This document shows, in pieces, positions 1,892 to 27,050 of a DNA stretch of 27,050 nucleotides. The translations under genes were made by a program, and so were the position numbers. This stretch comes from a virus, in IMG/VR virus record IMGVR_UViG_3300034071_000263, positions 1-27,050 of that record; one strand, 5' to 3'. The notes under the pieces are model-generated. The model saw only the letters and a program-made list of their open reading frames with translations, was not told the DNA's origin and did no database searches. Every line of letters begins with the position of its first letter. The stretch's first letter is position 1.

Positions 1892-1920
1892 AAAGGGTAG
1901 CTTAATAGTTACCCTTTTTT
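1892..1920 (+). terminator. Rho-independent terminator after the protease unit
   Basis: AAAGGGTA and TACCCTTT form a stem extended by a G-T wobble and a C-G pair around a short TTAATA-type loop, followed by a T run. It lies just past the stop at 1880. The minus-strand HNH gene ends at 1919, so the hairpin is positioned to stop transcription from both sides. Confidence 0.85.
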
Positions 1921-2683
1921 AATAATATTTACTTCCTTTTTTATAATTATCTTTTGCCCATAGTGGTTGAAAATTAGTATAGTGGTTTAATATAATTACA
2001 TCTTCCTCTGTCTTTGCTAATGCTAATGGTTTAATATGGTCTAAATGCCAAGAACCATAATTTTCAAGTGTCATTCCTTCAGTAAATTGTTTTTCAATAT
2101 AATTTCTAAAAAAATCAAAATTACATCCTAAAATACTTTCTGTTTTACTTTTCTTTTTCCAATTATTATTTTTATTTCTTTTAAAAGAAGTGCATACTAA
2201 TTGTCTTACATTAGATTTAAACCTAAAAATATCATCGTTTTTATATCTATTTGAAATATAATTATGTTGCCATTCTTTACCATTATTATTTTCTTTCCAT
2301 TCTTTATGTCTTGTTTTATTACAATTACTACAAGCAGCTACATTTATTTTTGTATTAATACTAAATGAAATGTCTTCAACTAAAAAATATTTAAAACAAC
2401 AATTACATTTAAAAGTTATTTTATTTTCATTTAAAAAACATATAAAACCAAATTGCGTACCCCCATTTTTAATGTGTAATTTATATTTATCATATAAAAT
2501 ATTTAAATAATCAGCATTAGTTTCTTCCTTAATATTATTAATGGTTATAATATTATTTTTTTTATTATAATTTTCATTTTTTAATTTATTAGATAAATAA
2601 AGTTTATCATATTCTAAATCCCAATCTACATTATCGTATAATTTTTTTAATTTTTGTAAATTTTCTTTTTTAGGTAAGTACAT
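1919..2683 (-). CDS. HNH homing-type endonuclease (minus strand)
   Basis: Read from ATG 2683 this is a 254-aa protein. A TTG-started version from 2722 exists, but that TTG lies inside the predicted RNA structure, so I prefer the ATG. A Cys cluster (C93, C95, C96 and C118xxC121) looks like a zinc-binding segment. The C-terminus carries the HNH nuclease motif: WHLDH at 212-216, LNHYTNFQPLWA at 232-243 and DN at 245-246. Free-standing HNH endonucleases of this type cut phage DNA and spread by homing; they are not needed for growth. It is the only convincing minus-strand gene in the window, sits between the protease and scaffold genes, and its C-terminal 70 residues are well over half identical by eye to the HNH protein at 16661-17194. 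No catalytic residue looks missing. Confidence 0.9.
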   Translation of the reverse strand: MYLPKKENLQKLKKLYDNVDWDLEYDKLYLSNKLKNENYNKKNNIITINNIKEETNADYLNILYDKYKLHIKNGGTQFGFICFLNENKITFKCNCCFKYFLVEDISFSINTKINVAACSNCNKTRHKEWKENNNGKEWQHNYISNRYKNDDIFRFKSNVRQLVCTSFKRNKNNNWKKKSKTESILGCNFDFFRNYIEKQFTEGMTLENYGSWHLDHIKPLALAKTEEDVIILNHYTNFQPLWAKDNYKKGSKYY

Positions 2684-2700
2684 TTTTTTTAAAATAAATA

Positions 2701-2766
2701 CCCCCTCTAATAGTACCGCCAAGTAAACTAAAAGAAGGGGATTTATAAAACTTTAAATCTTGGCGG
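2701..2766 (-). promoter_or_regulatory. Pseudoknot-capable structured 5' leader of the HNH gene
   Basis: Read on the minus strand, CCGCCAAG (2766-2759) pairs perfectly with CTTGGCGG (2723-2716). ATTTA (2758-2754) pairs with TAAAT (2745-2741) as an inner hairpin. CCCCTTC (2740-2734), inside the first stem's loop, can pair with GAGGGGG (2707-2701) outside it, using one G-U wobble. These interleaved pairings define an H-type pseudoknot. It ends about 17 bases before the HNH start codon. The last stem is better in minus-strand RNA than in plus-strand RNA, where one pair becomes A-C. Confidence 0.6.
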
Positions 2767-16165: not shown

Positions 16166-16677
16166 CGCAACATCATAAAGAATGGGTTGAGATTATACAC
16201 AAGTTTGGCGAGTATGATTATGCTGAAGACATAGTTCAGGAAACGTATATAGCTTTATACAAGTACGCAAATGCAGAAAAGATAATTGATGCAAATGGTA
16301 ATGTACGGAAAGGATACGTATTTTTTACTCTAAAATCTTTGTTCTTTCAGTTCTATAATAAAAAAATGAAGGTTACAAAAGTGCCTATTGATGACTGCTG
16401 GGACTTATTCGACGATTCCAATGTAGAAGAACATAAAGCATACAATGATATATGTTTGCTTATTGATGCTGAAATAAAGAACTGGAATGATTATGATATG
16501 TTACTATTTAAACTTTATAGGGATAGAGATTTAAGTATGCGTGAAATAGCAAAAGGAACTAATATCAGTTTGATTTCAATATTTAACAGTTTAAAAAATC
16601 ACAAAGCAATATTAAAGCAGAAGTTTCAGAAACAATATACTGATTATATAGAAAGAGATTATGAAAACTTGTACTAA
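16135..16677 (+). CDS. Sigma-70-like (ECF-type) transcription factor
   Basis: This 180-aa protein has the size and layout of a small sigma factor. A region-2-like helix set lies at about residues 15-75, with the typical YAEDIVQETYIALYKY sequence (DIVQETFLRLW-type core). A region-4-like helix-turn-helix lies at about 127-170 with DRDLSMREIAKGTNISLISIFNSLKNHKAILK. It would bind host RNA polymerase and redirect it, for example to late genes lacking host-type -7 elements. Region 2 promoter-melting residues are not clearly recognised, so a sigma-like DNA-binding regulator remains possible. It overlaps its upstream membrane protein by 31 bases and the HNH gene by 17. Confidence 0.75.
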   Translation: MDNNKWLEKVAQHHKEWVEIIHKFGEYDYAEDIVQETYIALYKYANAEKIIDANGNVRKGYVFFTLKSLFFQFYNKKMKVTKVPIDDCWDLFDDSNVEEHKAYNDICLLIDAEIKNWNDYDMLLFKLYRDRDLSMREIAKGTNISLISIFNSLKNHKAILKQKFQKQYTDYIERDYENLY

Positions 16678-17194
16678 ATGTAAAGAAGAAAAAAAATTAA
16701 TTGAATTTCATAAATCAGTAAAAAAATTATTTGGAGTAAATAATATTTGCAAATTATGCAGTAAAGAAGTTTTAAGATTATGGAGAAAAAATAATGTAGA
16801 AAAAGTAAAATATCACAATAAAAAATATAAAAATAAAGAATATAAAAAAAATAGAAAAAAAACTGATAGTTTGTTTAAATTAAAATGTAATATTAGTTCT
16901 TTAATATATTCATCTTTTAAAAAAAATAGCCATCATAAAAACTCAAAAACAAAAGAAATTTTAGGATGTTCATTTGAAAAATTTAAAGTACATTTAGAAA
17001 AACAATTTAAAGATGATATGTCTTGGGAAAATCAAGGCAAATGGCATTTAGACCATATTTATCCTGTATCTTTAGCAAAAGATGAAGAAGAATTAATAAA
17101 ACTAAATCATTACACAAATTTTCAACCACTTTGGGCATTTGATAATATAAGTAAAGGAAATAAAATAATAGAAAAACAATTAATACTAATATAA
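16661..17194 (+). CDS. HNH homing-type endonuclease, second copy
   Basis: This 177-aa protein has an N-terminal zinc-finger-like segment (C4xxC7 and C30xxC33), a basic Lys/Asn-rich middle, and a C-terminal HNH nuclease with WHLDH at 128-132, LNHYTNFQPLWA at 148-159 and DN at 161-162. Over about 70 residues it is well over half identical by eye to the minus-strand HNH protein at 1919-2683. The start overlaps the sigma-like gene by 17 bases. The N-terminal Cys cluster, unlike the longer N-terminus of the other copy, suggests separate acquisition of the DNA-recognition part. It is probably a free-standing homing endonuclease, not required for growth. Confidence 0.9.
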   Translation: MKTCTKCKEEKKLIEFHKSVKKLFGVNNICKLCSKEVLRLWRKNNVEKVKYHNKKYKNKEYKKNRKKTDSLFKLKCNISSLIYSSFKKNSHHKNSKTKEILGCSFEKFKVHLEKQFKDDMSWENQGKWHLDHIYPVSLAKDEEELIKLNHYTNFQPLWAFDNISKGNKIIEKQLILI

Positions 17195-22951: not shown

Positions 22952-23239
22952 ATGGCATTTGAAAAAGGACACAAGTTAAGCAAAGGCAGACCACCTAAAG
23001 TAGAAGAAGAAAAAGTAAATAACATTTTTCTAAAAGCATTAGGGCAACTTTACAATAAAGAAACTGAAGAAGAAACAAAGATTGAATTTGTTAAAACTAC
23101 TTTGATGGAATCTCAAAGAGGACAGTTATTTATTGCAGAGCATATATTTGGAAAGCCAAAAGAAACTATTGAAGCTACGCACAATATAAATGATTTTAAT
23201 ATAAAAGACATATTTAAAATTGGAAATAAATCTGAATGA
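22952..23239 (+). CDS. Terminase small subunit-like protein
   Basis: This 95-aa protein sits directly before TerL and overlaps it by 20 bases. The N-terminus FEKGHKLSKGRPPKV contains a GRPPK basic motif, like an AT-hook, and resembles the DUF5681/KGR-type start of some phage DNA-binding proteins. A helical core (VNNIFLKALGQLYN, TLMESQRGQLFIAEHIFGKPKETI) follows. Small subunits bind DNA packaging sites. The assignment is positional plus DNA-binding character; the sequence alone is not decisive. Confidence 0.65.
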   Translation: MAFEKGHKLSKGRPPKVEEEKVNNIFLKALGQLYNKETEEETKIEFVKTTLMESQRGQLFIAEHIFGKPKETIEATHNINDFNIKDIFKIGNKSE

Positions 23240-24428
23240 AAAGTATAACTTACTAGGTTCTGAAAGTAGATACTTTGTAATTACAGGTGGTAGGGGTTCA
23301 GGGAAATCTTATTCTTTGAACTCTTTTCTGTTGCTATTGACTTATGAAGTTGGACACGTTATACTGTTTACACGTTATACATTAACATCAGCAAATGTAT
23401 CTATCATTCCTGAATTTATAGACAAAATAGAATCAGCTGATTTAACGAACGATTTTTATATAACTAAAGATGAAATCATAAACTTAAGAACTGGGTCTAA
23501 AATACTATTTAAAGGTATTAAAACAAGTAGCGGAACACAAACCGCTAATTTAAAATCATTAGCTGGAGTAACTACGTGGGTATTAGATGAAGCAGAAGAA
23601 TTGACTGATGAGGAAACATTTGAAAAGATAGACTTTAGCATTAGAACAAAAGGAATTCAGAATAGAGTTTTATTAGTATTGAATCCAGCAACAAAAGAAC
23701 ACTTTATTTATAAGAAATTTTTTGAAGACAAAGGTATTCAAGCAGGAAGCAATTTAATAAAAGGTGATACTACTTATATTCATACAACTTACCTAGATAA
23801 CATCACAAACCTTTCAGAATCGTTTATAAATCAAATTGAGAATATAAAAGAAAGAAGACCTGAAAAATACAAACATCAAATATTAGGTGGCTGGTTAGAC
23901 AAAGCAGAGGGAGTTATATTTACGAACTGGACTATTGGCGAATATAAACAAATAGGTAAATCTGTATTTGGTCAAGATTTTGGATTTAGTAATGACCCAA
24001 CAACATTAATAGAATGTAATATAGACGTTTCTAATAAACGAATTTATATCAATGAAAGATTTTGTTTACCTGCATTAACAACGTCGCAGATATACGCTTT
24101 AAATAAGCAGCATTGTTTAGATAGTTTAATAGTAGCTGATAGTGCCGAACCTAGATTGATTAGCGAACTACAAACATCAGGTTTAAATATAGTATCAGCA
24201 ATTAAAGGTCAAGGTTCTGTGACGTATGGAATATCTTTGCTGCTAGATTATGATTTGATAGTTTCACCTGAATCAATTAATTTGATTAAAGAGTTAAACA
24301 ATTATTGTTGGCTAGAAAAGAAAAGCAACACACCAATAGATAATCATAACCATTTAATTGATGCATTACGTTATGCAGTAGGATATCAATTAGAAAATCC
24401 AAACAAAGGAACTTACTTTATCTACTAA
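23220..24428 (+). CDS. terL: Terminase large subunit (TerL), ATPase and nuclease
   Basis: This 402-aa packaging motor carries a Walker A motif GGRGSGKS at 23-30, a Walker B motif VLDEAEE at 121-127, and an RNaseH-like nuclease domain with D253 (FGQDFGF), D307 (VADSAEP) and D381 (HLIDALRYAV), the expected three acidic residues. The HLIDALRY ending is characteristic of PBSX-type/Terminase_3 TerL proteins. It docks on the portal to drive DNA in and cut it. Length is normal. Unusually, the portal gene is not close downstream in this window; tail genes come next. Confidence 0.95.
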   Translation: MEINLNEKYNLLGSESRYFVITGGRGSGKSYSLNSFLLLLTYEVGHVILFTRYTLTSANVSIIPEFIDKIESADLTNDFYITKDEIINLRTGSKILFKGIKTSSGTQTANLKSLAGVTTWVLDEAEELTDEETFEKIDFSIRTKGIQNRVLLVLNPATKEHFIYKKFFEDKGIQAGSNLIKGDTTYIHTTYLDNITNLSESFINQIENIKERRPEKYKHQILGGWLDKAEGVIFTNWTIGEYKQIGKSVFGQDFGFSNDPTTLIECNIDVSNKRIYINERFCLPALTTSQIYALNKQHCLDSLIVADSAEPRLISELQTSGLNIVSAIKGQGSVTYGISLLLDYDLIVSPESINLIKELNNYCWLEKKSNTPIDNHNHLIDALRYAVGYQLENPNKGTYFIY

Positions 24429-25053: not shown

Positions 25054-25716
25054 ATGAATTTAAGTATTACAATACCAACTTCACTTAACGAAATAACACT
25101 AGAACAATATCAAAAGTATTTAAGTATTGCAAAAGATAATGCTGATACTACTTTTTTAAATCACAAAATGATTGAAATATTTTGCGGTGTATCTTTGCTT
25201 GAAGTATCACTAATGAAACTAAAAGATATTAGTGATATTCTTTTAAGATTAGAAGAAACATTTAAAACCAATACAGATAAACTAATTAGAACATTCAAAC
25301 ATAATGGTGTTGAGTATGGTTTCATTCCTAATTTAGATGAAATAACTTTAGGCGAATATACTGATTTAGATACTTACATTTCTGACTGGGATAATATGCA
25401 CAGAGCTATGGCGGTACTCTACAGACCAATAAAAAATAAATTAAGTAACAACTATACAATAGTAGAATATAATGGCTCACAAGAACGCTGTGAGTTGATG
25501 AAGTCAATGCCTTTAGATGTAGTATTAAGTTCTACAGTTTTTTTTTTCAATTTACTAGCAGAATTGTTGACATATACAGCGAACTTTTTGGAGACGGACA
25601 AACAGATTCAGCGTTTACTAGAGAAGCCCAATTCGGAGTTAAGTGGGGATGGTATTCAAGCTATTACGCACTTGCTAAAGGAAACATCCTTGAGTTTGAA
25701 AACGTCTCTAAATTAA
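25054..25716 (+). CDS. Tail assembly chaperone, short (gpG-like) form
   Basis: This 220-aa zero-frame product resembles tail assembly chaperones of Bacteroidota phages, opening with IPTSLNEITLEQYQKYLSIA and continuing with LRLEETFKTNTDKL, LDEITLGEYTDLDTYISDWDN and MHRAMAVLYRP. These proteins bind the tape measure during tail assembly, as lambda gpG does. Upstream lie a terminator and an A-rich leader; a poly-T slip site (25538-25547) falls near residue 163. Past that site the zero-frame codons (CCC, TCG, GAG, AAG, GGG) are unusual for this genome, because the -1 frame is also coding. Confidence 0.8.
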   Translation: MNLSITIPTSLNEITLEQYQKYLSIAKDNADTTFLNHKMIEIFCGVSLLEVSLMKLKDISDILLRLEETFKTNTDKLIRTFKHNGVEYGFIPNLDEITLGEYTDLDTYISDWDNMHRAMAVLYRPIKNKLSNNYTIVEYNGSQERCELMKSMPLDVVLSSTVFFFNLLAELLTYTANFLETDKQIQRLLEKPNSELSGDGIQAITHLLKETSLSLKTSLN

Positions 25717-25784
25717 GATTAACCGCAGCGTTTACATATTTGACATTTGAGAAAGAAAAATTAGAACTAGAAAGAATAAAATAA
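25054..25784 (+). CDS. Tail assembly chaperone, long (gpGT-like) form by -1 frameshift
   Basis: Slipping back one base at the T run makes the ribosome read a frame open from 25494 to TAA 25782-25784. The fusion would be about 243 aa: the first 164 residues of the short form, then about 79 residues including IVDIYSELFGDGQTDSAF, FGVKWGWYSSYYALAKGNI and LTAAFTYLTFEKEKLELE. This GWY...YALAKG...F..V.KL...A..YLTFEK pattern is, as I recall, characteristic of the second chaperone product in related phages. The extension ends one base into the next gene's ATG. In lambda the equivalent gpGT arises from G and T by a -1 slip. The extension is inferred, not demonstrated here. Confidence 0.75.
25538..25547 (+). 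promoter_or_regulatory. -1 ribosomal frameshift slippery run (ten T)
   Basis: Ten consecutive T residues in the zero frame read GTT TTT TTT TTC. The T TTT TTT heptamer permits tandem re-pairing in the -1 frame. It lies just where the -1 frame begins to look like a conserved tail protein. No obvious downstream stimulatory stem-loop was identified; the downstream 60 bases are A/T-rich. Confidence 0.7.
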
Positions 25785-26245
25785 TGAGAACATATTATAA
25801 AGTTACTGAAGCAATAAAAGAATCATTACAAGCTGATGGTATAATTAATAACGTTTCAACAGGAGATTTGTTTAACGTAGATTTAAACAAAGTAACTATA
25901 TTCCCTTTAGCGCACGTTATAGTTAATACAGTAACAGAATCAGCATTAGGTAATACAAATCTATTTAACGTTTCTGTATTGCTTATGGATGTTTGCGATA
26001 TATCACCAAAAGAATCAACTGACTTATGGTTAGACAATGACAATGAGCAGGATATATTTAACACCCAATTAGAACTAGGCAAACGATTTGTCGAATCAAT
26101 GCGTAGAGGTGATTTATATAATAAAGGTTATCAATTAAATGGAACTGCAAACTACGAAGCGTTTTCAGATAGATTTGAAAACAAGTTAGTAGGTTGGACA
26201 ATTACATTTAATTTAGAAACTGCAAACGATACAACTATTTGCTAA
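25784..26245 (+). CDS. Tail terminator/completion-like protein
   Basis: This 153-aa protein starts within the TAATG that ends the chaperone long form. It opens RTYYKVTEAIKESLQADGIINNVSTGDLF and contains KVTIFPLAHVIVNT, VSVLLMDVCDISP and LGKRFVESMRRGDLY, then ends with VGWTITFNLETANDTTIC. The alpha/beta order (helix, strand, PLAHV, strand) and position next to the chaperone fit a tail terminator of the gpU/gp17 type, which caps the tail tube. This is inference from position and secondary-structure pattern. Confidence 0.7.
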   Translation: MRTYYKVTEAIKESLQADGIINNVSTGDLFNVDLNKVTIFPLAHVIVNTVTESALGNTNLFNVSVLLMDVCDISPKESTDLWLDNDNEQDIFNTQLELGKRFVESMRRGDLYNKGYQLNGTANYEAFSDRFENKLVGWTITFNLETANDTTIC

Positions 26246-26802
26246 TGCGTGAAATAGAAAAAACAAGATTGACTTTAGAAAAGTTTAGAGATTACGTTAT
26301 ACAGCAAAGTAGAAGTAATTTAACTAAAGATGGAAAGAACGACACAAAGAGTTTATACAACGAAATAAAGGGCGATGTATTTGTAGGTGCTAATAGTATA
26401 GGTTTAAACTTTTCAATGCCTATGTATGGGCAATTTCAGGACAAAGGTGTAAAAGGTTCAGACCCGTCACAAGTATCTAAAAACGCAAAGATAAAAGGTC
26501 AACAAGCACCGAATAGTCCGTTTAGTTTTAAAGGTAAAAGACCACCAAGCCAACCGCTAGAGTTATGGGCAAAAAGAAAAAATATAAGATTGCGAGATGA
26601 CAAAGGAAAGTTTAAAGCAGGTAGTTATAAAACAATAGGAATAATAATAGCAAAAAATGTTTGGGCAAGAGGTATAAGACCTAGTTTGTTTTTCACTACA
26701 CCATTTGAAGCAGGATATAAAAAATACATAGATAAAGAATTAATAGAATCATTTGCGTTGGATGTTGAAAGTTTAATGGAATCAAGTTTAAAAGATATAT
26801 AA
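26245..26802 (+). CDS. HK97 gp10-like neck/minor tail protein
   Basis: I use ATG 26245, which overlaps the previous stop by one base; a TTG two codons earlier is the alternative. The 185-aa product has a helical start, MYGQFQDKGVKGSDPSQ, a long polar linker rich in Ser, Pro and Lys (SKNAKIKGQQAPNSPF, GKRPPSQPLELWAKRK), and RGIRPSLFFTTPFEAGYKKYIDKELI. The Y..F.DKGV then RPSLFFT.PFE layout resembles HK97 gp10-type head-tail joining proteins (G...; ARPF...P). It is probably a neck component; the match is weak. Confidence 0.65.
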   Translation: MREIEKTRLTLEKFRDYVIQQSRSNLTKDGKNDTKSLYNEIKGDVFVGANSIGLNFSMPMYGQFQDKGVKGSDPSQVSKNAKIKGQQAPNSPFSFKGKRPPSQPLELWAKRKNIRLRDDKGKFKAGSYKTIGIIIAKNVWARGIRPSLFFTTPFEAGYKKYIDKELIESFALDVESLMESSLKDI

Positions 26803-27050
26803 TGAAAGTAATATTTGTACGAAGTCCTTATAAGATATTAGTTGATGAAGCTACGCAAGTTTACACTAAAGTTGTAGTTAATATTTCAGACCCTGCTGGA
26901 GTTTTACCATTAAAAACCGTAACACTTGAAAAGCAAATTCCTGACACAGTAAATAGAGCTTGTTGGTTTAATATTTCTCCTTATATTAAAGACGAAATAG
27001 AAAACATAGCACCGAGCGCAATTACGCCAACAGATGAGGATGCAAATATG
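26802..27050 (+). CDS. Tail protein, N-terminal part (3' truncated)
   Basis: ATG 26802 overlaps the previous stop by one base (TAATG), and the frame stays open to the last base (83 codons), so the end is outside the window. The visible part is mainly beta strand (KVIFVRSPYKILVDEATQVYTKVVVNI, LPLKTVTLEKQIPDTVNRACWFNISPYIKDEIENI). I do not recognise it. It lies where minor tail genes usually precede the tape measure. Confidence 0.75.
   Translation, partial: MKVIFVRSPYKILVDEATQVYTKVVVNISDPAGVLPLKTVTLEKQIPDTVNRACWFNISPYIKDEIENIAPSAITPTDEDANM

Follow-up and report, generated by a model that had tools for sequence, protein, structure and literature searches.

Frameshifting in tail-chaperone genes is a textbook case of ribosomal slippage, and it is the function of these genes that is conserved, not their sequence. 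Slippage of a different kind, at the level of transcription, occurs at runs of at least nine A or T in Thermus dnaX, in Shigella mxiE and spa13, and in some IS elements. Frameshifted pairs of tail chaperones are well known, and the known G/GT pairs have low sequence similarity even among themselves, as described in PMC5009743. In phage lambda, gpG and gpGT share one start, gpG being the short product and gpGT a minor product extended in the -1 frame, and they are encoded in the tail cluster, upstream of the tape measure gene. The E/E+E' gene of phage P2, also upstream of the tape measure gene, acquires its -1 extension through a frameshift at a T-rich, in-phase heptamer, T_TTT_TTG.

We analyzed a viral contig of 27,050 bases and 29.5% G+C (hereafter, the window), in which a gene following the terminase large subunit gene has the layout of these systems. 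It resembles the lambda pair in its single start, its predicted short and minor -1 extended products, and its place in a tail cluster upstream of the tape measure gene. However, it has no detectable sequence similarity to lambda G/T or P2 E, its putative slip site, a run of T residues, is invariably nine or more long, about 55 zero-frame codons lie beyond that site while the shift in lambda comes close to the end of G, and four genes separate it from the tape measure gene, which is downstream in the same cluster. It shares with P2 a T-rich, in-phase heptamer, the -1 extension and the position upstream of the tape measure gene, but the P2 site has only six T residues, and gpE lacks similarity to the alignment of G-like proteins. 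With the bacterial slippage genes, it has in common a homopolymer of roughly nine A or T residues at a frame junction, apparently maintained there by selection and avoided in other genes. Slippage is experimental for several of those genes, whereas here it is deduced from sequence, and in a gene of a phage structural module.

The features of the window are listed in Table 1. The zero frame, as read from the letters, runs from an ATG at 25054 to a TAA at 25714-25716, and the -1 frame is open from 25494, directly after a TGA at 25491-25493, to a TAA at 25782-25784, whose last base is the first base of the next ATG (25784). The ten-T run contains an in-phase heptamer T_TTT_TTT at 25539-25545 that fits the pattern X_XXY_YYZ. 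Residues 1 to ~164 of the zero-frame protein are common to both predicted products. The original prediction of a hidden -1 frame, overlooked by a plain open reading frame (ORF) call, is upheld as a conserved, programmed -1 transition at the T run; its coordinates for both frames and the run, and its in-phase T TTT TTT, agree with the letters, although the extension comprises 78 codons, not 79, when counting starts at 25548.

Table 1. Positions in the window of the frameshifted gene, its parts and its neighbors.
Feature	Position	Strand	Remarks
Terminase large subunit	23220..24428	+	phrog_2, E 6e-44; upstream neighbor
G-like zero-frame gene	25054..25716	+	220 aa + stop; homologues in 444 distinct loci
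Slip site, ten-T run	25538..25547	+	zero frame GTT TTT TTT TTC
-1 frame extension, T-like	25548..25784	+	78 codons + TAA; predicted helical domain with FGVKWGWY motif
Dual-coded overlap	25548..25716	+	C-terminal tail of G in the zero frame, together with the initial two thirds of the -1 extension
Next gene, phrog_30964 (unknown function)	25784..26245	+	ATG overlaps the -1 frame stop; same order as P12024L gp42
phrog_29822 gene	26245..26802	+	gp43, its counterpart in Nonlabens phage, has a further match to phrog_5 (tail completion/Neck1)

Relatives of this gene are numerous and diverse. Scanning IMG/VR with the zero-frame protein as query returned 80 loci, of which L043 ends at a contig edge before the junction. 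The remaining 79, and the isolates P12024L and P12024S, have a run of at least nine T residues at the junction, an open -1 frame and a conserved extension domain. Further scans, with alignments of either part as queries and with distant members placed first, raised the number of distinct loci to 444, mostly in public viral contigs but also in a few metagenome-assembled genomes (MAGs), with identities down to about 25%. The search patterns came from the protein of either part alone, with no requirement for the run, though some span the FF that it encodes. An unbroken run of at least nine T residues is present at the junction in all 444 loci, and in 442 of them the extension is a separate ORF in the -1 frame, that is, relatives have the same offset as the window. 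Among these 442, the run is T9 in 397, T10 in 41, T11 in one and T12 in three. Only five runs of at least nine T residues occur in 1.27 Mb of coding sequence from other genes of the relatives' contigs, and the presence of the run in 444 of 444 junctions is therefore far beyond chance. The -1 frame sequence is conserved at about 25-90% identity, with invariant F, WGW and Y positions, and this conservation starts at the T run. From these sequence comparisons, the gene pair belongs to a large, unnamed phage family that includes the isolate Nonlabens phage P12024L. Pairs homologous to that of the window occur in this phage (gp40/gp41) and in P12024S (gp38/gp39), with a T9 junction and the same gene order after the terminase gene, but with only ~30% identity, and they are annotated as two hypothetical proteins with no mention of a frameshift.

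The two exceptions among the 444 loci are L601 (T9), whose frame is broken near the contig end, and L597, a T10 member of a T9 clade, where one ORF holds both G and the extension (L597:2021-2770). The zero-frame tail of L597 stays intact if read with one T fewer, and its single ORF is probably due to the insertion of one T or to faulty assembly; a natural swap of the default product is another option. Five proteins of uncultured phages in BFVD (A0A516L611, A0A516L5A8, A0A6J5N0W0, A0A6J7WJY4 and A0A6J5SVK3, 241-267 aa) match the structural models of both the G-like part and the extension, and relatives with both parts in one ORF may therefore exist; a subsequent search for such fusions among the relatives found L597 only. 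In Elizabethkingia phage TCUEAP1, gene 3 (L465:2074-2616) is a 180-aa single ORF in the same place after the terminase gene, with a C-terminus that resembles the extension (hhalign 75%) and an unrelated N-terminus. The homologue L168 comes from a MAG assigned to Epsilonproteobacteria, although its contig may be a misbinned one from a phage with a Bacteroidota host. A search of 395 Bacteroidota genomes gave a match in the starting genome only.

Substitutions counted by codon position in 81 independent pairs of relatives bear out the original prediction that the -1 frame is under selection. Upstream of the run, zero-frame positions 1, 2 and 3 carry 520, 312 and 2391 substitutions, which is the strong third-position bias of an ordinary gene. 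In the overlap, the corresponding counts are 141, 372 and 350, that is, the zero-frame wobble position is restrained and the -1 frame wobble position is freed. Where only the -1 frame is read, its codon positions 1, 2 and 3 carry 79, 42 and 208. Since these counts show constraint on each frame in the overlap, both frames code, and comparative sequence data thus confirm the zero frame and the overlapping -1 frame as real coding sequence. In 268 of 269 loci, the +1 frame is closed no more than three codons away from the run (25549-25560 in the window), which may limit the products of one-base deletions, or may be a mere consequence of coding in two frames.

We propose that one start would lead to two products, an abundant G-like zero-frame protein (220 aa) and a minor G-T fusion for which reading enters the -1 frame at the T run, gaining the helical 78-residue domain. 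RNA polymerase passing over a run of at least nine T residues would give some transcripts one extra U, and ordinary translation of these transcripts would make the fusion, since the gain of a single U shifts reading precisely to the -1 frame. Slippage of the ribosome on U_UUU_UUU could be a contributor or the main route. We give a probability of roughly 0.55 to this two-product scheme in which RNA polymerase does at least part of the slipping, whether as the principal route or as a contributor.

The length of the run is suggestive of polymerase slippage. Although T_TTT_TTT requires only seven T residues, the run never has seven or eight. A tree of 95 members shows five or more switches of its codon phase, with its length still at least nine. 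On a 118-row tree of length 42.8, whose rows were picked for a common phase with only a few cases thereby removed, the nine T columns show zero changes, while every other column within ~40 nucleotides shows at least five. The remaining genes on the contigs of the relatives contain fewer long T runs than expected; T8, T9 and T10 are observed 13, 6 and 1 times versus 52, 19 and 10 times after shuffling of synonymous codons. Baranov and co-workers read such depletion of homopolymers as avoidance of transcriptional slippage (PMC1088944). Slippage is described as efficient at runs of nine A or T in bacteria (PMC5009743, PMC1088944, PMC5574713), and single-base insertions at A/T runs as rising exponentially with run length (PMC5574713). 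Because runs this long are counterselected elsewhere, polymerase slippage is to be expected at the junction too.

Signals that often accompany a ribosomal shift were sought around the run. A downstream stem-loop was considered as a stimulator, but sliding-window folding of 70 relatives, limited to nested structures, gave a mean z of about 0, so that no local RNA structure is seen to be conserved behind the run. A Shine-Dalgarno-like stimulator was rejected, as the motif precedes the run in only 12% of relatives and forms no conserved signal. Taken together, the invariant length of at least nine, the avoidance of such runs elsewhere and the failure to find conserved RNA structures or Shine-Dalgarno-like motifs lead us to favor polymerase slippage slightly over ribosomal slippage. 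The missing stimulators are in themselves no argument against the ribosome, since certain tailed phages apparently shift without them (PMC5009743).

The same G and G-T products could instead arise if the ribosome shifts by -1 at T_TTT_TTT, in the programmed manner of lambda G/GT and P2 E/E', with the run being at least nine long solely because the flanking codons must give hydrophobic residues in both frames. We consider this combination quite possible. The window does have the heptamer in phase, known tail genes use -1 ribosomal shifts (PMC5009743), and P2 E shifts at GGT TTT TTG. Moreover, the amino acid constraint can freeze T1 and T9. Codon 1 of the run encodes V, I or L and needs T at its second position in the zero frame, and at the far end the -1 frame keeps F or L, which also needs a second-position T; a check over the whole gene found the second positions of other hydrophobic columns to be equally frozen. 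Two-frame protein coding could thus by itself hold the outer two T residues, that is, hold the run at nine, and so we no longer take the nine-T constraint as proof of polymerase slippage, but only as suggestive. Against ribosomal slippage as the sole route, six T residues suffice for P2, whereas 0 of 444 loci here fall below nine, whatever the codon phase, and runs this long are selected against in other genes of the same contigs. The slip at the T run, as first proposed, therefore stands as to its site, conserved in 444 of 444 loci, but the ribosome is not established as its agent, and polymerase slippage, which the original prediction left out of account, is at least as likely because the run of at least nine T residues is invariant.

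Layout and genomic place are best read as those of a chaperone pair of the G/GT type. The gene order is terminase, the G/GT-like gene, the phrog_30964 gene, a tail completion/Neck1-like gene, two large genes and the tape measure gene. The contig begins inside a tape-measure-like ORF (positions 2-1042) and ends inside the preceding group of genes (26802-27050), and a near-identical contig (L004) supplies the genes missing between these two ends; the genome is thus cut at the window ends and is probably circularly permuted. Elsewhere in the window, two ORFs, at 1919-2722 (- strand) and 16661-17194 (+ strand), have in common an HNH-like C-terminal motif, WHLDHI...NFQPLWA, and are probably free-standing endonucleases.

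The comparison with lambda gpG/gpGT makes a role in tail assembly, as chaperones, probable for the pair, with the fusion as the minor partner at a fixed ratio. AlphaFold predicts a mixed helix/strand fold for the G-like part (pLDDT 84.6) and a helical fold for the extension (pLDDT 84.7). A structural search with these models retrieved uncharacterized phage proteins and one named tail assembly chaperone, at weak similarity (E 0.05, TM 0.36), and a search of the PDB with the G model gave no match. Pfam and PHROG profile searches yielded no significant match to a chaperone and no family with a function; the phage models among the many sub-threshold Pfam matches shown include PF10109, a tail-chaperone family, and Gp15 (PF06854). 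Missing similarity to known tail assembly chaperone families lowers the chaperone claim without excluding it, because known G/GT pairs, too, have low mutual similarity (PMC5009743). The pair might also be some other protein of the head, neck or tail that has a minor form with a changed C-terminus, whichever way the slip occurs. The lack of significant chaperone families or folds and the location of the gene near the terminase gene, four genes from the tape measure gene and not adjoining it, fit this alternative, but we consider it unlikely, given that the layout is that of G/GT, that the gene opens the tail/neck cluster, and that PF10109 and PF06854 are among the sub-threshold matches and a named chaperone gives a weak fold match. 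The original assignment as a tail chaperone thus agrees with layout and neighborhood but lacks a significant Pfam or PHROG match, a strong fold match and an adjacent tape measure gene, and no annotated family could be tied to the extension, which had been recognized as the second chaperone segment of Bacteroidota phages.

That a G-T fusion is made is, on the comparative sequence evidence, very probable. The -1 ORF of the window contains no ATG or GTG, and its first TTG is at 25740, just 14 codons before the end. Likewise, 423 of the 442 relatives have no ATG or GTG in the -1 ORF before the conserved WGW motif. As the -1 ORF lacks a usable start of its own, the extension can only be made as an addition to the zero-frame protein. 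The P12024L GenBank record lists gp40 and gp41 as separate hypothetical genes, which would fit two overlapping genes with the second initiated inside the first, but this survey of start codons and the onset of -1 frame conservation at the T run make an independent start highly improbable. Homopolymers are prone to errors, and L597 reads as one ORF, but a sequencing or assembly error, with a true run differing by one base and a continuous gene, is just as improbable for a family in which 442 of 444 assemblies and the isolate genomes P12024L and P12024S have the same offset and the zero frame past the run is conserved and under selection.

Our searches of the open-access literature, covering titles, abstracts and selected passages, found no proposal of polymerase slippage for a tail gene. 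We suggest, tentatively, that this phage family, probably of Bacteroidota, could well set the ratio of its tail-chaperone products by slippage of the polymerase and not of the ribosome. If so, the G/GT ratio control known from lambda would be built here at the step of transcription, and would operate in phages whose hosts' recoding is little studied. The -1 frame supplies the missing half of a gene for hundreds of phage genomes, and in P12024L it names a cultured isolate in which the frameshift can be tested.
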